A DNA stretch of 64,000 nt from Rheinheimera sp. MM224 (GTDB lineage: Bacteria; Pseudomonadota; Gammaproteobacteria; Enterobacterales; Alteromonadaceae): positions 4,329,001 through 4,393,000 of the forward strand of contig NZ_OX352320.1 in NCBI RefSeq assembly GCF_947090785.1, in the 5' to 3' direction. The position numbers were made by a program, and so were the translations under genes. The notes below the pieces were generated by a model. The model worked only from the letters and a program-made list of their open reading frames with translations. It was not told the origin of the DNA and ran no database searches. Every line of letters begins with the position of its first letter. Position 1 is the first letter of the stretch. Positions 12,536 to 45,442 of the stretch are shown piece by piece.

Positions 12536-12612
12536 TGGGGTGACTGATGGGGCTCGAACCCACGACAACCGGAATCACAATCCGGGACTCTACCAACTGA
12601 GCTACAGTCACC
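12536..12612 (-). tRNA. tRNA-His (anticodon GTG)
   Basis: Read on the minus strand the sequence begins GGTGACTGTAGCTCAG and folds into a full cloverleaf. The D arm is AGCTCAGTTGGTAGAG, the anticodon loop TTGTGAT carries GTG, and the T arm contains GGGTTCGAGCCC. The acceptor stem closes with a template-encoded CCA. The extra G at the 5' end opposite C73 is the G-1 identity element of histidine tRNA. Confidence 0.97.
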
Positions 12613-29500: not shown

Positions 29501-29923
29501 TCAGGCTGGCTTTCTTAGCCTCAATTGAAACAGCTGCATCGCAATTTCATCGGCCTGCTGCTGCTCAGCTTTTTGCTGCTTTTGCTGAGCTGTAAATTCA
29601 CGGTTATGGATCACAGCTTCTATGCCTTTGCTGTACGCCACTTGTTTCTGACACACCAGTTGTTGCTGTTGCAGCTCAGACAAAGCTGCCCCCACTTTCT
29701 CCTGTTGCTGTTGTTGCATGTCCTGCAGCACAGTTTTCATCGACGCCAGATTTTGTAAACCCAAAGCCGATTTCATCTGATAGCTACGTTCCATACCAGA
29801 AATATGTTCGGTCAGTAGCTGCAAACGCCGTTCTTCATTGGCCGCCTGCTGATTCAATTGCTGCTGGCGTTGTCCCATTTGTTTTAAATTGGCTTGCTGT
29901 TGTTCCAGATATTTTTTCAACAT
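29501..29923 (-). CDS. fliJ: Flagellar export chaperone FliJ-like protein (lateral)
   Basis: The 140-residue protein is almost entirely a Gln-rich coiled coil (LEQQQANLKQMGQRQQQLNQQ and following). FliJ is a soluble central stalk of the type III export ATPase and an escort for export chaperones. Identity rests on position directly after fliI (4-bp gap), size and coiled-coil character; sequence conservation in FliJ is always low. It is the last gene of the motY-lafK-fliEFGHIJ operon. Confidence 0.8.
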   Translation of the reverse strand: MLKKYLEQQQANLKQMGQRQQQLNQQAANEERRLQLLTEHISGMERSYQMKSALGLQNLASMKTVLQDMQQQQQEKVGAALSELQQQQLVCQKQVAYSKGIEAVIHNREFTAQQKQQKAEQQQADEIAMQLFQLRLRKPA

Positions 29924-29927
29924 AGGC

Positions 29928-31253
29928 TTAACTCAACAATTTAGTTAAATCGGCTTGGGATTGCTGAAAATCAGAGCTTTGTTGTAAGCCCTGACATAAA
30001 AAATGTTCGATGGCCGGATAGAGGTGCACCGCTCTGTCGAGCTCCTGATCTTTGCCCATCTGGTAAGCACCTAAAGGGATTAATTCCTGCACCTGCAAAT
30101 ACCGTGAATACAGTCGTTTCAGGGCATAAGCATGTTTTAGCTGCTGATCTGGCACTATTTGTGGCATTACCCTGCTGATCGAAGCACCTATATCAATAGC
30201 CGGATAATGACCCCGTTCGGCCAAAGTCCGGCTTAATACCACGTGGCCATCCAAAATAGCGCGCGCAGCGTCCGCTATTGGGTCCTGCTGGTCATCGCCC
30301 TCAGCCAACACGGTATAAATGGCGGTCATACTGCCTTTGCTATCGGCACTGTTGCCTGCTTTTTCAACCAGTTGCGTCAGCTTGCTAAAGACCGAAGGCG
30401 GATAACCTTTAGTCGCCGGAGGTTCACCGACAGACAAAGCAATTTCGCGCTGCGCCTGGGCATAACGGGTCAATGAATCCACCAGCAGCAACACGTTAAA
30501 ACCTAAATCACGATAGTAAGCGGCCAGTCTGTGACTCAGTTCTGCCGCTTTTAACCGCAGCAAAGGCGACTGGTCGGCCGGGGCTGCAATGACTATGGCC
30601 TTTTTTAAGCCTTCAGGGCCCAGACTGTGTTCGATAAAATCTTTCACTTCCCAGCCGCGTTCGCCAATTAAACCAACGATCACTACATCAGCCTGGGTAT
30701 AGCGGGTCATCATGCCCAGTAGCTTACTTTTACCCACGCCTGAGCCTGCAAATAACCCCATACGTTGACCCTGACCTACAGTAAACAGCGAGTTAATAGC
30801 ACGGATGCCCACATCCAGAGGAGCGCTAACACCTTTCTTTTGTAATGGGTTCACCGCAGGCAAAGCCGCACTGATACGATCACCGGTTTTAATTGGCGCT
30901 TTGCCATCGAGCGGGCACATTAAACCGTCCAGTACCCGGCCTAGTAACTCAGTAGAAACTAATAATTGATTGGCGGTTGCGACAGTTCGGACACGAGCAC
31001 CGGCTCTTAACCCATCCACTGCAGTTAGTGGCATTAAAAACGCCTGATCGGTATCAAAACCTACCACTTCAGCGTCAAACCAATGGCCATCCTCACTTTC
31101 AATCTGACAACGCTGACCTAAAGTAAAACTGTGACCAGCGGCAGATAAAATCATGCCGTTGACGCGCAACAAACGGCCGTAACTATGTACCCAGTCCGGT
31201 GGCTGGATTTGTGCTCTGGCCAGACTCAGGCTATCACTAAATGACTTACGCAT
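29928..31253 (-). CDS. fliI: Flagellum-specific ATPase FliI (lateral)
   Basis: The 441-residue hexameric ATPase energises type III export of flagellar subunits. The P-loop GLFAGSGVGKSK is near residue 165, Walker B VLLLVDSLTRYAQAQRE near 250. The family signature PPSVFSKLTQLVEKAG is near 285 and the downstream segment LSRTLAERGHYPAIDI near 345. It overlaps fliH by 8 bp and precedes fliJ, the usual order. A second fliI would be expected elsewhere if this organism also has a polar flagellum. Confidence 0.96.
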   Translation of the reverse strand: MRKSFSDSLSLARAQIQPPDWVHSYGRLLRVNGMILSAAGHSFTLGQRCQIESEDGHWFDAEVVGFDTDQAFLMPLTAVDGLRAGARVRTVATANQLLVSTELLGRVLDGLMCPLDGKAPIKTGDRISAALPAVNPLQKKGVSAPLDVGIRAINSLFTVGQGQRMGLFAGSGVGKSKLLGMMTRYTQADVVIVGLIGERGWEVKDFIEHSLGPEGLKKAIVIAAPADQSPLLRLKAAELSHRLAAYYRDLGFNVLLLVDSLTRYAQAQREIALSVGEPPATKGYPPSVFSKLTQLVEKAGNSADSKGSMTAIYTVLAEGDDQQDPIADAARAILDGHVVLSRTLAERGHYPAIDIGASISRVMPQIVPDQQLKHAYALKRLYSRYLQVQELIPLGAYQMGKDQELDRAVHLYPAIEHFLCQGLQQSSDFQQSQADLTKLLS

Positions 31254-31887
31254 CTTCGCCCAACAACTGCCGACGCACAGGCAACATGGCTTGCTCTAAA
31301 CGTTGCTGAAAATCCAGCTGATGCAATTGCTGACGACCATTAAACTGCACCCGGCCTGAGGGCAAGGCGGCATCAAACTGCAATGGAATTTGCTGAATAT
31401 GGCGGATGCCATTAAAAAGCGGAGCGTCGGCCTGGGACAACTGAATAGACACCAGAGGATCTGTAGCGCCCAGTTGCGGCAACAACTGGTCAATAGCCAG
31501 CTGTAACAACGAAGGTTGCAATACCAGCTCAGTCTGAAGCACAGTACTGGCCAGCTGCTGCACCAGCAATAACAGCTCCTGCCCTAATTGCTGCTCTTTA
31601 TGCTGCAACTGCTGGTTAAATTGTTCGGTTAAAAAATCCAAAGCACGTTGCTGTTTTTGCGCCAGTTCATTTTGCTGCTTTTCTAGCTCTTTTTGCCAGA
31701 ACTGCTCTAATTGCTGCTGACCTTCGGCAACACCACGTTGATAAGCCTCTTGTTCAGTCGCGGCAACACCGGCCTGAAAACCTTGTTGATAAAACTGCTC
31801 ACTCAATTGCTGCACTGTGGCATTACCATCTTTGCGCTGCAAAGCGGGAAAGCGAAATTGTTGGTCCTGCTGCAACACGGCGCTCAT
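31246..31887 (-). CDS. fliH: Flagellar assembly protein FliH (lateral)
   Basis: The 213-residue protein is the peripheral stator and inhibitor of FliI. The N-terminal half has the GxxxG-like YQQGFQAGVAATEQEAYQRG repeat followed by a Gln-rich coiled coil. The C-terminal domain contains FLTEQFNQQLQHKEQQLGQELLLLVQQLASTVL and NGRQQLHQL. Position between fliG (1-bp gap) and fliI (8-bp overlap) fixes the call. Confidence 0.9.
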   Translation of the reverse strand: MSAVLQQDQQFRFPALQRKDGNATVQQLSEQFYQQGFQAGVAATEQEAYQRGVAEGQQQLEQFWQKELEKQQNELAQKQQRALDFLTEQFNQQLQHKEQQLGQELLLLVQQLASTVLQTELVLQPSLLQLAIDQLLPQLGATDPLVSIQLSQADAPLFNGIRHIQQIPLQFDAALPSGRVQFNGRQQLHQLDFQQRLEQAMLPVRRQLLGEDA

Positions 31888-31888
31888 A

Positions 31889-32908
31889 TCAACCTACCGT
31901 CTCTTCAGGATAGAGGCGATACTCCAGTCGTCCTGCCGCCATCATTTGTTTGACTATGGTCATAATCTCAGCTCGGGCAGCTTCCACTTTGCGCACTGGC
32001 TGAGGTTTCATCGTCTCAATTTGTTGACGGTAAACCTGCGCCAAACGTTTTGGCAACACAGCCAGGATACTTTCGGTCAGTGCCACATCGGCGCCTTTGA
32101 GTGCAGTGACCCAAAGTTCGTCCGGAATATCCGTTAGCAGTTGATTCAATACATCTTCGCTTTGGCGGCTTAAGCTGTAGAAGTCATACATCTTGTCTTC
32201 AATGGCATCGGCCATAGTGATGTCGTGCTTTTTCAGCAGCTCCATCACTTCAGATTTATTGCCACTGTATCTGTTCATAATGTCAGCTACTTGCTGCACG
32301 CCGTTAATACGGGCGCCCACTTGTTCGCCGACATACTCAATACAACGTTCCAGCGTGTAACGTAAATCTTCAATCACGTGCTCGCTGACTTCCCGCATAT
32401 TGGCGATACGGAACAAAATATCGTCGTGTTTTTGCGCCGGAAATAAACTCAGAATAGTGCTGGCTTGCTCCGCAGGTAAAAAAGCCAGAATAAGCGCCTG
32501 CATCTGGATATGTTCCTGCTCCATAAAACGCACCAGCAGCTCAGCGGGCACCCATTCCAGACGACGTACATCATCGGCTAAAGCGCCACCGTAAATATCA
32601 TCCAGCATGCCACGGGCCAATTTACGGCCAACGGCTTTATCCAAAGCCCGCTCCAGATAAACACGCGAAGCGCCGCTGACACCACTTTCTGTGCGGTACT
32701 GATCAAAAAAGTCAGTCAAAATAGTGGCCACATCGTCCTGAGTCACATTGGCAATTTTGGCCATACGTTCCGACAAAGCCCGCACTTCATTACGGCCTAA
32801 CTTCTTGATAATACAGGCTGCGTTTTCTTCACCCATACTCAGCAGCAGGATAGCGGCTCTGTCCAGATCAGAAATCTGTTTGCTTTGCTCAGCTCTTAAC
32901 GGATTCAA
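31889..32908 (-). CDS. fliG: Flagellar motor switch protein FliG (lateral)
   Basis: The 339-residue rotor protein contacts FliF and FliM and, through its C-terminal torque helix, the MotA stator. The N-terminal domain has LDRAAILLLSMGEENAACI. The middle domain carries the EHPQ-equivalent region near residue 125 (here VRFMEQEHIQMQALIL) and the C-terminal domain DIPDELWVTALKGAD. Charged residues typical of the torque helix are visible in the last 80 residues. It overlaps fliF by 20 bp, an unusually long overlap that suggests coupled translation. Confidence 0.95.
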   Translation of the reverse strand: MNPLRAEQSKQISDLDRAAILLLSMGEENAACIIKKLGRNEVRALSERMAKIANVTQDDVATILTDFFDQYRTESGVSGASRVYLERALDKAVGRKLARGMLDDIYGGALADDVRRLEWVPAELLVRFMEQEHIQMQALILAFLPAEQASTILSLFPAQKHDDILFRIANMREVSEHVIEDLRYTLERCIEYVGEQVGARINGVQQVADIMNRYSGNKSEVMELLKKHDITMADAIEDKMYDFYSLSRQSEDVLNQLLTDIPDELWVTALKGADVALTESILAVLPKRLAQVYRQQIETMKPQPVRKVEAARAEIMTIVKQMMAAGRLEYRLYPEETVG

Positions 32909-34634
32909 TGCTGACTCCTCGTTCTATCCAGTATTTAATGACTGCGGTCACCCGGTCAGACTCACGGTTGGCCAGCAATTGCAGGTGGTTGATTTGCTGC
33001 GCAAATTCAGAGCCCACTTCGGGTAAATGAATATTGTGTTGTGGCCCGCTGGATAGTGAATTGGTTAATGCAGGGTCTGCCTGAGCATCCAAGACTGCTG
33101 GCCCTGTCGCCAGATCCGCATTTTGCATCTGAGTCGGATTCTGAGCACCAGTCATGCCCTGAAACCCAGCAGCATTGTGTTGTTCTTTGTTTTTACGGCT
33201 GACCAAATGATTGACCAGAGGGCGAACACCAAAAATCACCAATGCCAAACCAATAATGGCGCCGATCAGGTAACGTAAATACTCTTTCATTTCCGGCATT
33301 TGCCACCAGGCCATGCCTTCCATTTGAGTTGCTGCGTCGCCAGGCACAAAACCAAAACTGGTGATATTAAACTGATCACCCCGTTCGGCCTGATGGCCTG
33401 TCGCAGTTTTAATCATTTCACCTAACTGAGCTAAACGCTCTGGAGTCCAGGGTGTTGCACCTGCAGCGGCTTCATTCACCAGCACAGACACACTTTGACT
33501 GCGCACCCGGCCTATTTCATAGCGGGTATGGGTAATGGCTTTGCCTGTATCGAATTCACGGCGCATTTCATTACGTTGTGAGGTACGTTCATTGTTGTCA
33601 GGTTGTGCTGCCGCTGCACCTGGCTGTGCAGGCACAGGCGGTTGATTGGCTAAAGAGCCAGGAATACCCATAGCCAGTTGATCCAACATCGAGTCCGTTT
33701 TGCTGTTTTCACTTTTCAGCACGCCTTCTTTATCCAGCGCTTCACGGGTTTCTTCCACCACGTTAAAGTCGACATCAGCAGAAACCTGAATACGGTAATT
33801 GCCGTCTCCTAAAATAGGCAGCAACATAATAGAGGCCCGCTCTTCGACAGAACGTTCCACTTTTTCAATAAAGGCGAGTTTTTTGTCGGTTTCTTTACCA
33901 ACCGGAGTTTCATCAAACAGATCGCCGCTGACTAACTTACCGCGCTGATCCACGACAGAAATATTGCGGCTATCCAGGCCAGGAATACTGCCAGCAACCA
34001 GGCTGACAATAGCTTCTACTTGTTCAGGTTTCAGGTTATAACCAGGAGCTAAATCTACCATCACAGAAGCTGCAGATTTTTCTTCCTGCCGGCCAACAAA
34101 CAAATTACGTTTAGGAATAGCTAAATGCACTCTGGCATTACGCACTCCATCCATAGTAATGATGGTTCGGGCCAGTTCACCTTCTAAAGCGTGCTGGTAT
34201 TGCATCGACTCCATAAACTGACTGGTGCCCATGGTGACTTTGTCCTGCATAGCAGACAAACCTTCAGGCATTGCAGCCTTAATACCACGAGCCGCCAGCG
34301 TAATACGGGCATCGGCTAAACGTTCCTGCGGCACCATAATATTGCCGCTGTCGGTATCGATACGAAATGGAAATTGCTCTTTATCCAGAATTTCCACTAT
34401 ACCGGCTTTGTCGTAATGCTCCTGATTGCCATACAAAGGCACAAAGTTTTTTGCCGAAGTCCAGAGGATCACCACTATAGTGGCCGCTACTAAAGTCGCC
34501 AGCAAAGCAATGGACGCCAGGCTCTTATCGCCATTAGGTAACCAGTTCATTTTGCTGGATAAGTTAATCACTCTTTCCCGCAGTCTGTTGTCTGAAGCCG
34601 CCACAGGCAGAGCTTTTGCCAATTCAGTTTTCAT
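32889..34634 (-). CDS. fliF: Flagellar MS-ring protein FliF (lateral)
   Basis: The 581-residue protein forms the inner-membrane ring on which the motor assembles. The first membrane helix is near residues 40-62 (SLASIALLATLVAATIVVIL). Ring-building motifs with the YscJ-like segment LVPLYGN.., MQYQHALEGELARTI and ARVHLAIPKRNLF follow. The second helix is near 450-470 (YLIGAIIGLALVIFGVRPLV) and the cytosolic tail binds FliG. It is preceded by fliE with a 12-bp gap. Confidence 0.96.
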   Translation of the reverse strand: MKTELAKALPVAASDNRLRERVINLSSKMNWLPNGDKSLASIALLATLVAATIVVILWTSAKNFVPLYGNQEHYDKAGIVEILDKEQFPFRIDTDSGNIMVPQERLADARITLAARGIKAAMPEGLSAMQDKVTMGTSQFMESMQYQHALEGELARTIITMDGVRNARVHLAIPKRNLFVGRQEEKSAASVMVDLAPGYNLKPEQVEAIVSLVAGSIPGLDSRNISVVDQRGKLVSGDLFDETPVGKETDKKLAFIEKVERSVEERASIMLLPILGDGNYRIQVSADVDFNVVEETREALDKEGVLKSENSKTDSMLDQLAMGIPGSLANQPPVPAQPGAAAAQPDNNERTSQRNEMRREFDTGKAITHTRYEIGRVRSQSVSVLVNEAAAGATPWTPERLAQLGEMIKTATGHQAERGDQFNITSFGFVPGDAATQMEGMAWWQMPEMKEYLRYLIGAIIGLALVIFGVRPLVNHLVSRKNKEQHNAAGFQGMTGAQNPTQMQNADLATGPAVLDAQADPALTNSLSSGPQHNIHLPEVGSEFAQQINHLQLLANRESDRVTAVIKYWIERGVSIESVKS

Positions 34635-34646
34635 TAAAAGCCCGCC

Positions 34647-34964
34647 TTACAGAGACATACGCATGATGTCATCAACACCATTCATCACTTTGTTGCGGAT
34701 TTGCAGCAACATCGAAAAACTCAAATCTGCTTTTTGGCTGGCGACCATAGCGCCCACCACATCATCGCTGCGACCTGCGTCTACGGCGGCCATCATGTCT
34801 GACGACAGATTTTGCTGAGCATTGATAGAGCGCAAAGCAGAGGCAAAATCGCCCGACATCGAACTGTCGTTGTTGGCTGGCATCACTTGCTCATTGCTGG
34901 CAATTTGTTGCAACTGGCTAAACTGGCTGAGTAACACATCTTGAGTATTTAACGGAGAAATCAT
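34647..34964 (-). CDS. fliE: Flagellar rod/MS-ring junction protein FliE (lateral)
   Basis: The 105-residue protein joins the MS ring to the proximal rod and is needed for early export. The C-terminal half is the conserved FliE region: VGAMVASQKADLSFSMLLQIRNKVMNGVDDIMRMSL. It lies between lafK (19-bp gap) and fliF, the order of lateral clusters. Confidence 0.93.
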   Translation of the reverse strand: MISPLNTQDVLLSQFSQLQQIASNEQVMPANNDSSMSGDFASALRSINAQQNLSSDMMAAVDAGRSDDVVGAMVASQKADLSFSMLLQIRNKVMNGVDDIMRMSL

Positions 34965-34983: not shown

Positions 34984-36297
34984 TTAAGCTATTGCATCAA
35001 TATCGACACCATGCTCACGCATAGCGGCCAGTTTGTAACGTAAGGCTCTGGTGCTTACGCCCAAAGCCTCTGCAGCCCGGGTTCTGTGACCATTAAATTG
35101 GTTCAGCACACCCAGGATGTAATCAAATTCGGCATTCTTTTTGTTGAGTTTCAGATGGTTAATGCTGGCTGATTCAGGGGCAGTCACTGCTGGCAGAGGT
35201 AAATTCAGATCAATCGCCTGCACTTCAATGCCTCGGGCCATCACCAAAGCACGCTGCACCACGTTTTCTAGTTCCCGCACATTGCCGGGCCAGCTGTACT
35301 GGCAAAGCGCCGCTTTAGCTTCTTTGCTCAGTACATATTTGCCATCGGCATACTTCTGCACAAAAAACTCAGCCAGCGGAATTATGTCGTCTTTGCGTTC
35401 CCTCAGAGCAGGCCAGCTCAGTGGCAATACATCCAGGCGATAAAATAAGTCCTGACGGAACAAGCCCTGATCAACCAACTGACGTAAATCTTTGTTACTG
35501 GCTGCAATCACACGCACATCCAGTTTAATTTTGCTGTTGCTGCCTAAACGCTCCAGCTCGCGTTCCTGCAATACCCGCAGTAATTTGGCCTGCAGCGGAA
35601 GTGGCAGCTCTGAAATTTCATCCAGCAGTAAAGTGCCACCATTGGCCGATTCAAACTTACCAATTTGCTGGCTGACCGCACCGGTAAAAGCGCCTTTGTT
35701 GTAACCAAACAACATGGCTTCGAGCATATTGTCTGGAATCGCAGCACAGTTCACCGCCACATAGGTCTGGTCACGGCGTGCTGATACATTGTGAATGTAA
35801 CGGGCTAAACGCTCTTTACCTGTGCCTGACTCACCATGTAACAGCACTGTGGCATCGGTTTGCGCTGCGCGATTAGCCAGTTGCAATACCTGACGACTAC
35901 CCAACGACACAGCCACTAAGTCTTTTAAACCACGGCTGATCGAAGAGGCATTGCGGATGGTGTTTTGCAGTTGCTGCTGGTTAAAAGGCTTCAGCAGATA
36001 ATCAATAGCGCCATAATTCAGACTTTCAGCGGCCACTGCGTGTTGATCTTTTTCGACCAGCACTATGATTTGACAGGAAGGGTGCTGTTTTTTCAGCAGA
36101 ACCATCAAATCTCTTGTGCGCATCTCGGTCAGTTCAGCAGCCATCACCACTATGTCCGGTTGGTGCAAAGAGCAAGAGTTCAGCACGGCATTCAGATTGG
36201 CGGCGTGGTTTAACTGAAAACCTTCAGCTTTGACACAAAGCATCAGGTCCTGTCCTGGCTGGCATTGTTCAATCCAAAGTAAATGTTTCATGTTCAT
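34984..36297 (-). CDS. lafK: Sigma-54-dependent activator, LafK-like master regulator
   Basis: The 437-residue protein has three parts. The N-terminal receiver-like domain (about 1-115) keeps the late Lys (YLLKPF), but the phospho-acceptor position reads IVVMAAEL, with Ala where Asp is expected. The AAA+ domain has Walker A HGESGTGKE near 155, the sigma-54 contact loop YNKGAFTGA near 200 and Walker B GGTLLLDEISELP near 220. The C-terminal Fis-type HTH is GHRTRAAEALGVSTRALRYKL. LafK activates sigma-54 promoters of lateral flagellar genes in Vibrio; candidate target promoters lie before fliT and flgB here. It follows motY in the riboswitch-led operon. Confidence 0.9.
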   Translation of the reverse strand: MNMKHLLWIEQCQPGQDLMLCVKAEGFQLNHAANLNAVLNSCSLHQPDIVVMAAELTEMRTRDLMVLLKKQHPSCQIIVLVEKDQHAVAAESLNYGAIDYLLKPFNQQQLQNTIRNASSISRGLKDLVAVSLGSRQVLQLANRAAQTDATVLLHGESGTGKERLARYIHNVSARRDQTYVAVNCAAIPDNMLEAMLFGYNKGAFTGAVSQQIGKFESANGGTLLLDEISELPLPLQAKLLRVLQERELERLGSNSKIKLDVRVIAASNKDLRQLVDQGLFRQDLFYRLDVLPLSWPALRERKDDIIPLAEFFVQKYADGKYVLSKEAKAALCQYSWPGNVRELENVVQRALVMARGIEVQAIDLNLPLPAVTAPESASINHLKLNKKNAEFDYILGVLNQFNGHRTRAAEALGVSTRALRYKLAAMREHGVDIDAIA

Positions 36298-36314: not shown

Positions 36315-37148
36315 TCAGCTTTGAGTACGGATCAAACGGACCAGTACTCTCCTGTTGTGCGATTGTGTTTTGCTGCCAGCAGCCGGATATCTGTTGCCAT
36401 GAGCACGGATTTCCAGTTTGTTTTTGCTAACGCCAAATTCAATTAAATGTGACGCGACTTCATCAGCGCGTTCTTCGGACATTACTCTGTTGGCGATGCT
36501 GGTACCCATGTCGTCGGTATATCCGTCTATCAATACTTTTTTTACCGCTTTATCTTGCTTGATATAAAGCGCCAGAGTTTTCAGGAAAGCAGCATCATCG
36601 GCTGAAGGCTGGCGTTCATTCACCGGATAAAACAACTGGAATTCGCGGGCCTGGGCCCAGGACAAAGGCAATAAAGCGTCAATACAGCTTTGGAATTGTG
36701 CGAGGGCTGAAGCGGATTTGATATTAGGAACTGTCAGGGTGATTTCCTGATCGGGCATATCCAGCATCAGTTGTAGCCAATAGCCTTGCTGTAATTGCTG
36801 CATTACAACGGGCACCTGCTCAATAAAGCGGGCTACTTTGGCATTAATAAAAGTGGGGGAAAATTGCACAGCAGGGGCGACTTGCTCTGGCTGCCAGCCA
36901 GCAGTGACGACATGGCCTTGCACATCCTGTAATTCCAGATGAGCCGCATGCATGGTCAGTTGCATTTCAATAGCACGGGCTGGCTCTTTGCTAAAAGCCA
37001 GAGTACCCATAGCGCCCAAATCCTGCGCCATCCGGCACTGAAACTGATCACCACTGATACGCCACTGTGATTGATCCATAGCAGGCATGTACTGCGGGGC
37101 AGTAGCTACAGCCGATGTTAGCCAAAGACCTAACAAAGAAATAATCAC
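36315..37148 (-). CDS. motY: Flagellar motor stator-associated protein MotY (lateral)
   Basis: The 277-residue secreted protein has a signal peptide (MIISLLGLWLTSAVATAP). A MotY-type N-terminal domain binds the basal body, with WRISGDQFQCRMAQDLGAMG near 28. The C-terminal OmpA-like peptidoglycan-binding domain has KVLIDGYTDDMGTSIANRVMSEERADEV and the closing NRRVLVRL. MotY forms the T ring that recruits stators. It is the first gene of the operon and its leader carries the c-di-GMP riboswitch. Confidence 0.9.
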   Translation of the reverse strand: MIISLLGLWLTSAVATAPQYMPAMDQSQWRISGDQFQCRMAQDLGAMGTLAFSKEPARAIEMQLTMHAAHLELQDVQGHVVTAGWQPEQVAPAVQFSPTFINAKVARFIEQVPVVMQQLQQGYWLQLMLDMPDQEITLTVPNIKSASALAQFQSCIDALLPLSWAQAREFQLFYPVNERQPSADDAAFLKTLALYIKQDKAVKKVLIDGYTDDMGTSIANRVMSEERADEVASHLIEFGVSKNKLEIRAHGNRYPAAGSKTQSHNRRVLVRLIRTQS

Positions 37149-37334
37149 AGGTTCATCCTTTTAAACCGCATAACCGCAATCGACAAAAACGCCAACCACA
37201 AACAGTATTAAAAGGCAAAAAAAGCAGACAGGTATACAGCCAAATCCTGGACGGATCTGTGTTGTATCCACCTGAACAGGCGAAACCAAGGTCTGACCAA
37301 AACTGATCAACCTTCAGGTTCACCTTTTGGGTGA
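37149..37334 (-). promoter_or_regulatory. Leader between c-di-GMP aptamer and motY (expression platform region)
   Basis: These roughly 185 bp contain no gene. On the minus strand a hairpin GGTCACC/GGTGAACC region follows the aptamer. A later imperfect stem (CAGA and CAGG pairing with CCTG and TCTG) precedes a U7 run at 37217-37223, which could be a terminator controlled by the aptamer. The pairing is by eye and weak; whether the switch is on or off with ligand cannot be told. Confidence 0.4.
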
Positions 37335-37440
37335 CCGCTTGCTAATGCAACCCCGCTATCATAGATCCTTGCGGATCCTTAGACCGGAGGCTTTGCGTCC
37401 TGACCTTTAAGCCAGTTTGCCTTTTAATTTCTAAGCTTGT
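37335..37440 (-). promoter_or_regulatory. Cyclic di-GMP-I (GEMM) riboswitch aptamer
   Basis: Read on the minus strand, GGCAAAC (37421-37415) is followed by a hairpin CTGGC/GTCAG. The family core GGACGCAAAGCCTCCGG comes next, then CTAA, then a stem GGATCC/GGATCT capped by a GCAA tetraloop, and GATAGCGGGGTTGCA (37360 onward). GCTT/AAGC can close P1. Order and invariant bases match the Vibrio cholerae Vc2 aptamer, differing mainly in the stems. It lies about 190 nt upstream of the motY ATG, so c-di-GMP should control the motY-lafK-fliEFGHIJ transcript. Confidence 0.92.
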
Positions 37441-37762
37441 TAGAAAAATGAGGTTCAGAACAAAAATGAACTCTCACTTAATACTCTACAATAAACAAAA
37501 AAAACTGGCTGCAAGCTTTATTTTTATGATCTTCAATCGTTTAGTCAAAAAATATACACTGACTTGCTGCAGATGTTCATTTCAAAATGAACTAAAAAAA
37601 CATTTACAGTTCAATAACATAGATATGTTAACCATAGTACATGACCTTTTGGTGACAAAATCAGACCTTAGTCTGAATTCAGGCTGAATTGCGTTCAGCA
37701 ACTGATTTTCAGCGACGAACGGATCAACACCAGATCCTTTTTTGTGGTTATTTGGTCGCCTT
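37441..37762 (-). other. AT-rich region upstream of the riboswitch and downstream of flhA
   Basis: No gene is accepted here. The sequence is markedly AT-rich and must contain the promoter of the riboswitch-led operon. A TTGACT with TAAAAA 16 bp downstream (minus strand, around 37530-37560) is one weak sigma-70 candidate. No sigma-54 motif or strong flhA terminator was seen. Confidence 0.4.
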
Positions 37763-39835
37763 TTAACCCAAAGTTCCTAATACATTGACCCGAATTTGCT
37801 CTGGAATTTCGTTATAAGACAACACAACCAGAGATCCCTGAGTAAAGGTACGGGCATAACGCGCTAATAATGGCCTTAGTTGTGGTAAAACTACCAATAC
37901 CGGCTGATAGCCCTGTCGCTGCATTTGTTCTTTCACCTGAGGCATAGCACGCTGGAACTGACTCAATAAATTCGGTGCAACAGGAAAACTATCCAAAGCT
38001 ACTTTACCGGCCTGCATCGCCTGATTTAATGCACTTTGTAAAGTTTGCTCCAGCTTTTCATCCAGGCTATAAGCCGCTAATTCTTCGCGCTCTCCCAGCA
38101 CTTGTTTCACCAATACCCGTTGCAAAGCACAGCGCACATCGCTGGTCAGTAAGATTGGATCTTTGGTCACCTCGGCACTGTCGACCAAGGCTGTGGCTAT
38201 AGTCACCACATCCCCTAAACTGACCTGCTCTTTCAGTAACAAGCGATAGACTTTTAACTGCAGATTAGGGGTCAGTGCTTTTTCCAAACTCTCAGCCAGA
38301 GTCGGCGCTACAACAGACAGGCGTTTATTAAATTGCTTAATATCTTCAAACAAAAACAAATCGGCCAGATTTTCTTTAATCACTTTGCCGACATGAGTGG
38401 CGATAACTGTGGCTGCGTCCACCACTGAATACCCTAAGTTTAAAGCTTTGGCTTTTTGCTCTGGTTCAATCCAGACCGCTTCTAAGCCATAAGCAGGATC
38501 GACTGTCAGCTCACCATCCATCTGACCGTAAATATCACCAGTGTTCAGTGCCAGCAGCTTTTGTGGCTGCAATTTACCCGACACCAGCGGCACTCCGGCC
38601 AGCTTGATGCGGTACTCCTGCGGATTCTGCTTTAAGCTGTCACGTACCCGCACTTCAGGCAGTAAAAATCCGGACTGTTCAGACAAGGTTTTGCGCACCC
38701 CTCTTAAGGTTTGTAGCAAAGTTTCGCCTTGCTCTTTATCGGCCAGATACACCAGACGGAAGCCCAGTTCCACCGAAATACGGTCGATAAAAGGCAAATC
38801 ATCCCAGACTAAAGCAGCGGGTTCCTGACTAATTTTTTCAGTCAGCGCTTCCACTTCGGTATAGCTGCGACCATCAGCTTTTTGCTGCAAACGCCAGGCG
38901 GCAAAATACAAAGGAGCGGCGAAAATTAGGAAGGCGGCGGTTGGCATACCAGGCACTAAACCCAGTACTGTCATAATCAAGGCGGCAGTTAGCAGAACCC
39001 GGGGAGAAGCCAGCAACTGACGGCCCACTTCGTCCGACATTTCACCTTCGTCATTCATCCGGGTAACAATAATAGCAGCGGCAACAGACATCAGTAGTGA
39101 AGGTACCTGAGCCACTAAACCATCACCTATGGTCAATAAGGCAAAACGCTGGAAAGACTCACCTAAACCCAGACCATGCATAAAGACACCTATGGCCACA
39201 CCACCCAACAGGTTAATCACTAGTATGACTAAACCCGCTATCGCATCACCACGGACAAACTTAGAAGCACCATCCATAGAACCATAAAAGTCGGCTTCTT
39301 TGGCTATGGTTTGACGGCGTTCTTTGGCTTGCTCTGGCGCTATTAAACCGGCATTTAAATCAGCGTCTATCGCCATTTGTTTACCCGGCATTGCATCGAG
39401 GGTAAAACGGGCTGCGACTTCAGAAATACGTTCACCACCTTTGGTGATTACAACAAAGTTGATGATCATCAAAATGATAAAGACCACCATACCTACTACA
39501 TAGTTACCGCCTATCACCACTTCACCAAAAGACTGGATCACATTACCAGCCACATGAGTGCCCTCATGGCCGTGCAATAACACCACCCGGGTAGACGCCA
39601 CGTTCAGCGTCAGACGCATTAAGGTCGCCACCAGCAAAACGGTCGGAAATACAGAGAAATCCAGCGGTTTTTGGCTGGACACAGCCACCAGCAGTACGAT
39701 GATCGACAACACTATATTAAAAGTGAATAACGCATCCAGCAGCCAGGCCGGTAAAGGCAACACCACCATGGCCAGAATGGCCAGCAATAACACAGGAATT
39801 GCGGTGTAAGGTTGAGTTAAAGAACGCCAGTTCAC
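37763..39835 (-). CDS. flhA: Flagellar export gate protein FlhA (lateral)
   Basis: The 690-residue protein forms the export gate ring. The N-terminal half has about eight membrane helices with the FHIPEP signature region equivalent (FTLDAMPGKQMAIDADLNAGLI, near 155-180). The C-terminal cytosolic domain docks chaperone-substrate complexes. It overlaps flhB by 4 bp and ends the fliT-to-flhA run of genes. Confidence 0.96.
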   Translation of the reverse strand: MNWRSLTQPYTAIPVLLLAILAMVVLPLPAWLLDALFTFNIVLSIIVLLVAVSSQKPLDFSVFPTVLLVATLMRLTLNVASTRVVLLHGHEGTHVAGNVIQSFGEVVIGGNYVVGMVVFIILMIINFVVITKGGERISEVAARFTLDAMPGKQMAIDADLNAGLIAPEQAKERRQTIAKEADFYGSMDGASKFVRGDAIAGLVILVINLLGGVAIGVFMHGLGLGESFQRFALLTIGDGLVAQVPSLLMSVAAAIIVTRMNDEGEMSDEVGRQLLASPRVLLTAALIMTVLGLVPGMPTAAFLIFAAPLYFAAWRLQQKADGRSYTEVEALTEKISQEPAALVWDDLPFIDRISVELGFRLVYLADKEQGETLLQTLRGVRKTLSEQSGFLLPEVRVRDSLKQNPQEYRIKLAGVPLVSGKLQPQKLLALNTGDIYGQMDGELTVDPAYGLEAVWIEPEQKAKALNLGYSVVDAATVIATHVGKVIKENLADLFLFEDIKQFNKRLSVVAPTLAESLEKALTPNLQLKVYRLLLKEQVSLGDVVTIATALVDSAEVTKDPILLTSDVRCALQRVLVKQVLGEREELAAYSLDEKLEQTLQSALNQAMQAGKVALDSFPVAPNLLSQFQRAMPQVKEQMQRQGYQPVLVVLPQLRPLLARYARTFTQGSLVVLSYNEIPEQIRVNVLGTLG

Positions 39836-44022: not shown

Positions 44023-44451
44023 CTACCCTAAATTCTGCTGCTGGTTGACTTCAACCAGTCGAAAGTTATCCTGCTTCAATACAAAAGCCCGTCGTCTGAG
44101 TTTGCGTAATAACTTCAGCCGCACTGAATTGTCTTTGCCTTGCCACTCCAGACCTAAAAACTCCAGCTTGTCGTTAATGGTTTTGCGATAACAGACTTTG
44201 GCTTTGACTCTGGTCTGTTTGTCATACAACACCCAAAACTGATCCGGCACATTGTCTTTCAGTGGAGCCAGCACTCCGGCGCCGCCCATGCTCATGTCTT
44301 TCACTACGGCGCTGCCAATGTCGCTGCCAAACCAGCCCAGACCTTTTAATTTCACGGCTATGCCCTTGGTCTGGGTTTGCAGAGACTGCTGTGGGTCATA
44401 AAAATACCAACGATAATAATTGCGGCCTGGTTGTTGGCGTAAATACGGCAT
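44023..44451 (-). CDS. PilZ-like domain protein embedded in the flagellar operon
   Basis: The ATG at 44451 follows AGGAT and lies 1 bp past the motB stop; a longer start at 44502 would overlap motB and is rejected. The 142-residue protein contains VVKDMSMGGAGVLAP, the D/NxSxxG motif of PilZ domains. An Arg-rich stretch on the opposite end is less canonical than RxxxR. PilZ domains bind c-di-GMP. Its place between motB and fliM suggests a motor-directed effector, by analogy to YcgR, but this is inference. A comparable gene is not part of the classic Vibrio laf description known to me. Confidence 0.72.
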   Translation of the reverse strand: MPYLRQQPGRNYYRWYFYDPQQSLQTQTKGIAVKLKGLGWFGSDIGSAVVKDMSMGGAGVLAPLKDNVPDQFWVLYDKQTRVKAKVCYRKTINDKLEFLGLEWQGKDNSVRLKLLRKLRRRAFVLKQDNFRLVEVNQQQNLG

Positions 44452-44452
44452 A

Positions 44453-45442
44453 TCAATCCTGATAACTGCTGCGTAACACAGGCTGATTCTGACGTGCAGC
44501 ATCAGAGGCCTTATTCAGCTCGTTTTGTTTGTTGTCGCTGGAGAACATGTCTTTTAACTGCTGCTCAGCTTTGCTCGTTAGGATCAGAATCTCGATACGG
44601 CGGTTTTCACTGGCACCTGGCTGGGCTCTGTTAAGCAACATAGTTTCTGCAAAAGCACTGACCTGAGCCACACGCTGCACTGGCATACCACCAGCTGCTA
44701 ATACCTGCCGCGCTTGTAAGGCCCTGTCACCGGATAATTCCCAGTTACTGTATTGGCTGCTATTAAAGGCGGTACCATCGGTATGACCCGAAATTAATAG
44801 CCTGTTGTGGATACGCGAAAACACCGGCGCCAGCTTTAATAACAAGTCTTCAAAATACGGCGTCATTTCCACCTGACCACGCTGAAACATCTGGCGGTTT
44901 TCACTGTCGCGGATAATAACGCGCAAGCCTGCCGGCATAGCTTCAATCACCAGATTGGCTTCGGCTTGATTTACCTCTGCAAAATTCTGAAAGGCCTGAG
45001 CCAACAAGCTTAGATCCGGTGGCGAGTCGTATTGGCCACTGATCAGTGAATTGAGTTTTTCGCCCACCCCAGCTGAAGGTTCTTTTTTACCTTCAGGTAT
45101 TTGTAAATGTGCCGACATACCAGCGACAAAACTTTGCTGAGGTTCATGCACAGAAACAGCCATCTCGATAGGCGAAGGTGTGCCGCCTAAATCCACCGGA
45201 TATGGGCTGTTCATCGCATCAAAAGGATGGCTATTGCCGCCTAAAATCGACTGAGTGCGCATATAAGACGCCACTTTCGTGCGCTCTTTGACTGTAGAGA
45301 CTTCTAAAATCCACAACACCATAAAAAACGCCATCATCGCCAGCGTAAAGTCAGCAAAAGCGACTTTCCAGGCGCCGTTGCTTTTACGACTTGCTTTGGC
45401 GCGGCTGACGCGCCTGATGATTACAGGAACTGAATCGTTCAT
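44453..45442 (-). CDS. motB: Flagellar stator protein MotB (lateral, LafU-like)
   Basis: The 329-residue protein has one membrane helix (about 28-48) with FADFTLAMMAFFMVLWIL, where the Asp is the ion-conducting residue. The sequence is close to proton-type MotB. The periplasmic OmpA-like domain has LLISGHTDGTAFNSSQYSNWELSGDRA near 240 and binds peptidoglycan. With MotA and MotY it forms the stator. The ATG shares one base with the motA stop. Confidence 0.94.
   Translation of the reverse strand: MNDSVPVIIRRVSRAKASRKSNGAWKVAFADFTLAMMAFFMVLWILEVSTVKERTKVASYMRTQSILGGNSHPFDAMNSPYPVDLGGTPSPIEMAVSVHEPQQSFVAGMSAHLQIPEGKKEPSAGVGEKLNSLISGQYDSPPDLSLLAQAFQNFAEVNQAEANLVIEAMPAGLRVIIRDSENRQMFQRGQVEMTPYFEDLLLKLAPVFSRIHNRLLISGHTDGTAFNSSQYSNWELSGDRALQARQVLAAGGMPVQRVAQVSAFAETMLLNRAQPGASENRRIEILILTSKAEQQLKDMFSSDNKQNELNKASDAARQNQPVLRSSYQD

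Follow-up and report, generated by a model that had tools for sequence, protein, structure and literature searches.

The closest described relatives of the element analysed here are two riboswitches of the same aptamer class, Vc2 of Vibrio cholerae and Bc1 of Bacillus thuringiensis, together with the c-di-GMP-I-GGC family (RF03167), which belongs to the same clan as the standard c-di-GMP-I family (RF01051). Vc2 is reportedly the subject of a 2018 paper, and the early GEMM papers are said to have counted flagellar genes in general among the targets. Bc1 is described, in the accessible part of PMC11218506, as possessing two typical intrinsic terminators and a long platform that also touches the ribosome-binding site and the start codon.

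For lateral flagella, the portions available of two papers on Shewanella putrefaciens indicate that lower c-di-GMP favours these organelles (PMC8203827, PMC9061725). The effect is ascribed, in the text at hand of the second, to a transcription regulator and a PilZ protein (PMC9061725), and MotL is presented, in the excerpted first, as a c-di-GMP-binding regulator of lateral flagella activity (PMC8203827). The literature on c-di-GMP riboswitches and lateral flagella, to the partial extent to which it is openly available (subscription papers lying mostly outside this coverage), contained no report of a riboswitch at lafK; the one paper combining lafK with a riboswitch concerns, in its available part, a c-di-GMP-II element at a different gene pair.

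The locus described below lies in a stretch of 64,000 nt from Rheinheimera sp. MM224, called the window. It differs from Vc2 in its target, the lafK operon of a lateral flagellum, and in a Shine-Dalgarno region whose letters also occur in the aptamer 5' strand; from RF03167 in carrying the standard form of the aptamer; and from Bc1 in showing no compact terminator in a scan, only an imperfect stem near a run of seven U's.

Results

A c-di-GMP-I aptamer precedes the motY-lafK operon

Two Rfam matches were obtained in the whole window, a tRNA (12539-12611) and a full-length c-di-GMP-I aptamer on the minus strand (37431-37343, model positions 1-87 of 87, E 1e-13), whose score of 78.4 bits against a gathering cut-off of 35 bits bears out the GEMM-I aptamer that the first-pass annotation had recognized by eye. 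The motifs named there, GGACGCAAAGCC, a GCAA-capped stem (GGATCC-GCAA-GGATC) and GATAGCGGGGTT, are all present. Within the clan, RF01051 is the best match, and the copy does not classify as RF03167. All 38 aligned aptamers, the window copy included, agree in three features: the G in GCAAAC, the A's in GCAAAG and the C that follows GGGGUU. I take these columns to be the ligand-contact positions G20, A47 and C92 of Vc2. The class is already known, and nothing departing from RF01051 was noticed in the aptamer itself. That the lateral flagellar lafK operon carries a riboswitch of the c-di-GMP-I class is almost certain.

The host genome (4.64 Mb, one contig) contains two c-di-GMP-I aptamers. The second (L002, G000:C1:619106-619189) precedes a DUF3718 gene, and by eye several congeners have a similar gene at an equal distance from an aptamer of this type.

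In the window, flhA and motY are 614 nt apart, and the aptamer lies in this gap, its end separated by 194 nt from the GTG start codon of motY, on the same strand (minus). The downstream gene order proposed earlier, motY-lafK-fliEFGHIJ, proved correct by profile matches, FliJ scoring below its Pfam cut-off (Table 1). NCBIfam provides no name for LafK, since 66 sigma-54 activator families match the protein and none of the 25 listed reaches its cut-off; the name derives from synteny with LafK of Vibrio parahaemolyticus, as given in the part of PMC4406679 that was available. A weak terminator-like hairpin of 6 pairs (37661-37676, minus strand), about 87 nt past flhA, could end the flhA transcript ahead of the riboswitch leader. 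The flagellar cluster spans about 29.5-62 kb of the window, flhB, fliP, a sigma factor, MotA, MotB, FliD and flagellin being identified by profile and the remainder by eye from lists of open reading frames. Elsewhere in the genome, another MotY (22%) and another FlhA (47% identity) are encoded, which indicates that the window cluster is one of two flagellar systems.

Table 1. Features of the riboswitch leader and of the neighbouring genes (window coordinates)
Feature	Position	Strand	Basis
flhA, upstream neighbour	37763..39835	-	closest NCBIfam profile TIGR01398 FlhA, 769.1 bits, slightly below cut-off 772.1
c-di-GMP-I riboswitch aptamer	37343..37431	-	Rfam RF01051, 78.4 bits, full length
Aptamer 5' strand AUUAAAAGGCAAA	37416..37428	-	predicted to pair with 37207-37219 when ligand-free
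U7 run	37217..37223	-	sequence; overlaps the putative switching strand
Putative switching strand (anti-aptamer) UUUGCCUUUUAAU	37207..37219	-	complementarity and folding; holds three of the seven U's of U7
Putative anti-Shine-Dalgarno CCUUUUAA, inside switching strand	37208..37215	-	pairs with 37157-37164 in the aptamer-constrained fold
motY Shine-Dalgarno region UUAAAAGG	37157..37164	-	shares its letters with the aptamer 5' strand
motY, lateral flagellar motor protein, GTG start	36315..37148	-	PF18393 MotY_N 69.3 bits, OmpA 57.8 bits
lafK, sigma-54-dependent flagellar regulator	34984..36297	-	Response_reg, Sigma54_activat, HTH_8 (receiver, sigma-54 activator, Fis-type HTH)
fliE	34647..34964	-	TIGR00205, 67.1 bits
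fliF	32889..34634	-	PF01514, 199.5 bits
fliG	31889..32908	-	FliG_N, FliG_M, FliG_C
fliH	31246..31887	-	PF02108, 39.3 bits
fliI	29928..31253	-	ATP-synt_ab and T3SS_ATPase_C
fliJ	29501..29923	-	PF02050 24.8 bits, under Pfam cut-off 28.4; position

The aptamer recurs in front of lafK

All 22 genomes of the genus contain c-di-GMP-I aptamers, with 34 matches in total, and 7 of the 30 matches whose loci were examined occupy the position between flhA and motY. At the level of the family, the window MotY retrieved 16 genomes out of 246 at E below 1e-30. In each of them lafK adjoins motY, and all 16 lateral motY-lafK loci have an aptamer, of either the c-di-GMP-I or the c-di-GMP-I-GGC type. Fourteen of these loci come from one Rfam scan (14/14 positive: nine c-di-GMP-I and five c-di-GMP-I-GGC), the window and G020 from separate searches. 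Four of the five GGC matches in the family score below the GGC cut-off, yet have E below 1e-9. By comparison, at MotY loci that lack a lafK neighbour an aptamer was found in none of four (L047-L050) out of 14 such loci. Aptamers are common in the family anyway, since 149 of the 246 genomes have one according to a model of my own (R1). In genus g14 (G034, G081, G114, G142), c-di-GMP-I-type aptamers number eight to nine per genome, more than in any other genome of the listing. The GGC form replaces the standard aptamer at the same place before motY-lafK in eight genomes, five of g14/g4 (L042-L046) and three of f2 (L070, L071, L075); 5/8 of these GGC matches are under the 59-bit cut-off.

The search was extended to 394 genomes of the order with LafK as query (E below 1e-120), a sample that comprises LafK proteins close to that of the window and leaves out Flag-2 of Escherichia coli. 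It yielded 39 genomes, 38 of them evaluable, the sequence of G354 ending too close to lafK. An aptamer is located upstream of lafK at 28 of the 38 loci, the other ten comprising one decayed copy (G402) and nine loci without aptamer, five of genus g72 and four of family f6, where none appeared even at lax thresholds; the sole R1 row among these nine (L095, 7.9 bits, E 5, opposite strand) was taken as chance. Counted as distinct genomes across the genus, family and order searches, 43 of 53 evaluable lafK loci have the aptamer. The LafK match in four f2 genomes (L070, L071, L075, L083) crosses one TAA, probably the natural stop near the protein end. Three other loci (L066, L068, L074) share a conserved block, CCAGCUACUC ... 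GAGUAGGCACGA ... GUACG..GCA.CUGG, roughly 120-200 nt past the aptamer; the block looks structured by eye, and an Rfam search at E 0.1 gave no match for it.

Two of the groups could be named. Genus g85 is Aeromonas: a sigma-54-activator stretch of Aeromonas caviae matches six of the 12 genomes at 79-98%, and the other six share the genus label. Eleven of the 12 have an intact aptamer, which, judging from the spacing, is followed directly by lafK, with no motY between. Because lafK directly follows the aptamer in this genus, it is lafK that appears to be the common target. The decayed copy also belongs to Aeromonas (G402; L103 3831-3921; 28.3 bits with Rfam, 39 bits with R1), and its 11 sampled congeners are intact. 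Genus g72 is most likely Vibrio, judging from a Vibrio campbellii record whose long matches to the five g72 loci have 69-81% DNA identity, more than those to the other groups. This record has motY-lafK, and no aptamer was found in its 2.06 Mb, although, as a caution on this negative, the search matched none of its 14 control genomes either. An assignment of family f6 to Shewanella was discarded as too weak, the Shewanella stretch matching 2 of 10 genomes, both from f6 (2/3 of its genomes), at 70-71%. A scan of named organisms by LafK alignment was also abandoned, being swamped by other sigma-54 activators; of at least 80 loci that it listed, 25 were scanned with R1 and none was positive.

The leader is predicted to mask the motY ribosome site

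The 13 nt at 37428-37416, within the aptamer, are perfectly complementary to 37219-37207, 123 nt past it. When the leader was dinucleotide-shuffled, a score as high arose in 2 of 300 cases, and in the related loci L004 and L006 in 1 and 3 of 300, respectively. Genus g18 displays a 16-nt complement with one mismatch (TGCAGTTTTCCTTTTA versus TAAAAGGCAAACTGCA), equalled by 0/300 shuffles in each of three loci. None of the other 22 loci fell under 5% of shuffles, the nearest being L066 (16/300), and within the window's own genus the score was non-significant at L033 and L034 (107 and 111 of 300). This ungapped complementarity score, combined with shuffles, replaced RNAduplex energies, which are too permissive in AU-rich leaders.

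Without constraint, the minimum-energy fold places the switching strand on the aptamer 5' strand, while imposing the aptamer makes 37215-37208 pair with the ribosome site at 37164-37157; L035, a g18 locus, behaves likewise in both folds with its own sequences. One pair of the Shine-Dalgarno helix differs on both sides between the window group and g18 (U-A versus A-U), a single compensatory difference seen by eye. When the folded RNA includes 16 nt before the aptamer and 30 nt of the coding region, and the Shine-Dalgarno is taken as 8 nt, the computed accessibility of this site in the window drops from 0.78 to 0.26 on imposing the aptamer, a fall matched by none of 100 middle-shuffled leaders. 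At L004 it drops from 0.66 to 0.29 with the same RNA ends, 1 of 100 shuffles being as large.

Sixteen loci were then compared using 16 nt upstream, 15 nt of coding sequence, an 11-nt ribosome site and 40 shuffles per locus. The fall was reached by no shuffle in the window and in Aeromonas L073, and by two of 40 in L035 and in Aeromonas L072; in L037 (4/40) and Aeromonas L076 (5/40) it is suggestive at most, and there was no clear fall in the remaining ten loci (L033, L039, L040, L041, L065, L069, L087, L089, L097, L098). The latter indicate that the expression platform is not shared across lineages. Ahead of the lafK start, eight Aeromonas leaders (L072, L073, L076-L081) share the block TCAGTTCTGTTGATTG, either exactly or with a single letter changed; the free fold of L073 pairs parts of this block with the aptamer, and the constrained fold pairs parts of it with the ribosome site.

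As modelled, the outcome depends on where transcription starts and is sensitive to both assumed ends of the folded RNA, 5' and 3'. With 40 nt upstream, the effect is nearly gone in the window (0.28 versus 0.24) and in L005 (0.19 versus 0.18), shrinks in L003 (0.34 versus 0.20) and is kept in L004 (0.66 versus 0.28) and L006 (0.40 versus 0.11). Coding length also matters: L004 shows little with 15 nt (0.67 versus 0.57), and the g18 effect is lost with 30 nt, the values for L035 going from 0.40/0.16 to 0.18/0.15. In the window's genus, L034 shows no effect in any of three folding settings (0.17 versus 0.17), and the value for L033 falls from 0.47 to 0.15 or from 0.30 to 0.29, depending on which letters are taken as the ribosome site. 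Promoter-like sites numbered three in a scan, versus 1.5 expected, and all three are on the minus strand. Words of the OpaR site taken from PMC4406679 occur in none of the collected lafK/motY loci. The free fold lies about 10 kcal/mol below the constrained one (-105.9 versus -95.8), a gap that, in the folding model, is a large cost for the ligand at equilibrium. The switch, if it works, therefore probably acts during transcription.

The folding leads me to lean, by a little, towards an OFF switch that masks the motY ribosome site. At low c-di-GMP the switching strand (37207-37219) would pair with 37416-37428 and break the aptamer, leaving the motY ribosome site open. At high c-di-GMP the bound aptamer would retain its 5' strand, and the switching strand would be free to block the Shine-Dalgarno at 37157-37164. 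The resulting loss of motY translation would lower the expression of lafK and fliEFGHIJ by polarity. Lateral flagella would thus be built at low c-di-GMP and shut off on the turn to biofilm.

Termination, an ON switch or a passive leader

The U7 run noted earlier is present at 37217-37223, and an imperfect stem does precede it, as had been said. The stem (37274-37229) stops 5 nt short of the U's, and the suggestion that the two form a terminator platform is the less likely one. A scan for compact terminators (loop 3-8) found none at U7. The same aptamer might nonetheless act by premature termination, either with U7 as an intrinsic terminator or with a leader that invites Rho, which could also act after the ribosome site has been masked. 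When the RNA is folded up to U7, CAGAC:GUCUG pairing can close a branched stem at 37225, and the best structure closed 0-3 nt before U7 reaches -26.9 kcal/mol (shuffle mean -19.6), with none of 40 shuffles as low. That a stem near U7 beats all 40 shuffles leaves room for termination and slightly lowers my confidence in the OFF switch by masking. This closure is disfavoured, however, because CAGAC is kept in two of the five close relatives (window and L006) and differs in L003, L004 and L005 with no matching change, while GUCUG stays in all five. Moreover, in a fold that runs from 16 nt before the aptamer to U7, the U's sit on the aptamer 5' strand. I find U7 better read as overlapping the switching strand than as a terminator, and I regard control by termination as a live but unlikely alternative.

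The sign of the switch could also be the opposite one, with c-di-GMP raising motY-lafK expression, as sensor riboswitches whose binding favours production exist according to the part of PMC10269520 that was available. Such an ON switch is improbable: the accessibility shifts that few shuffles reach all point to OFF, whereas the most negative ones, at L039 and L041, were matched by 5/40 and 6/40 shuffles, and in S. putrefaciens, as far as the accessible text of PMC8203827 and PMC9061725 goes, lateral flagella are favoured by lower c-di-GMP. Finally, the aptamer might be real and the leader a passive relic here, lafK being controlled mainly at the level of transcription by a regulator of the OpaR or FlrA type. 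The likely Vibrio genomes and part of f6 do without the aptamer, and the Aeromonas G402 copy has decayed to 28.3 bits. Against this, the core letters are conserved across families, the window copy scores 78.4 bits and 43 of 53 lafK loci retain the aptamer. I regard a relic as the least probable of the three.

Discussion

Gating of the lateral flagellum by c-di-GMP at the lafK operon had been proposed in the first-pass annotation. This is supported indirectly by the genome comparison, because the association of the aptamer with lafK recurs in several families and lafK is the first gene behind it in Aeromonas. The OFF sign predicted for the masking switch agrees, by analogy, with the S. putrefaciens work.

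A second c-di-GMP-related component is encoded in the same cluster. Directly after motB, a PilZ-domain protein (44023-44502, minus strand; PF07238, 23.6 bits against a cut-off of 22.5) carries the motifs RNYYR and DMSMGG, and it resembles MotL by its place and motifs. Together with the riboswitch, this MotL-like protein suggests that a single flagellum encoded in the window may be under c-di-GMP control at two levels. An attractive if tentative reading, with nearly even prospects, is that a direct lafK RNA switch is the ancestral control of lateral flagella in much of the order to which this family, Aeromonas and related groups belong, and was lost in Vibrio, that lineages keep the aptamer and rebuild the platform, and that the riboswitch and the MotL-like PilZ protein act on the making and the running of the lateral flagellum, respectively. 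As part of the same tentative reading, the ribosome site would mimic the aptamer 5' strand in the window group and in g18, so that one strand either breaks the sensor or closes the gene, and Aeromonas would obtain the same OFF logic with different sequences.

The combination of a conserved link between aptamer and lafK with platforms rebuilt by lineage gives the element an interest above routine. Its absence in Vibrio, where lateral flagella are most studied, could explain why it has been overlooked. A riboswitch placed before lafK would offer a direct route from c-di-GMP to the building of a second flagellum, and it would do so in workable genera such as Aeromonas.
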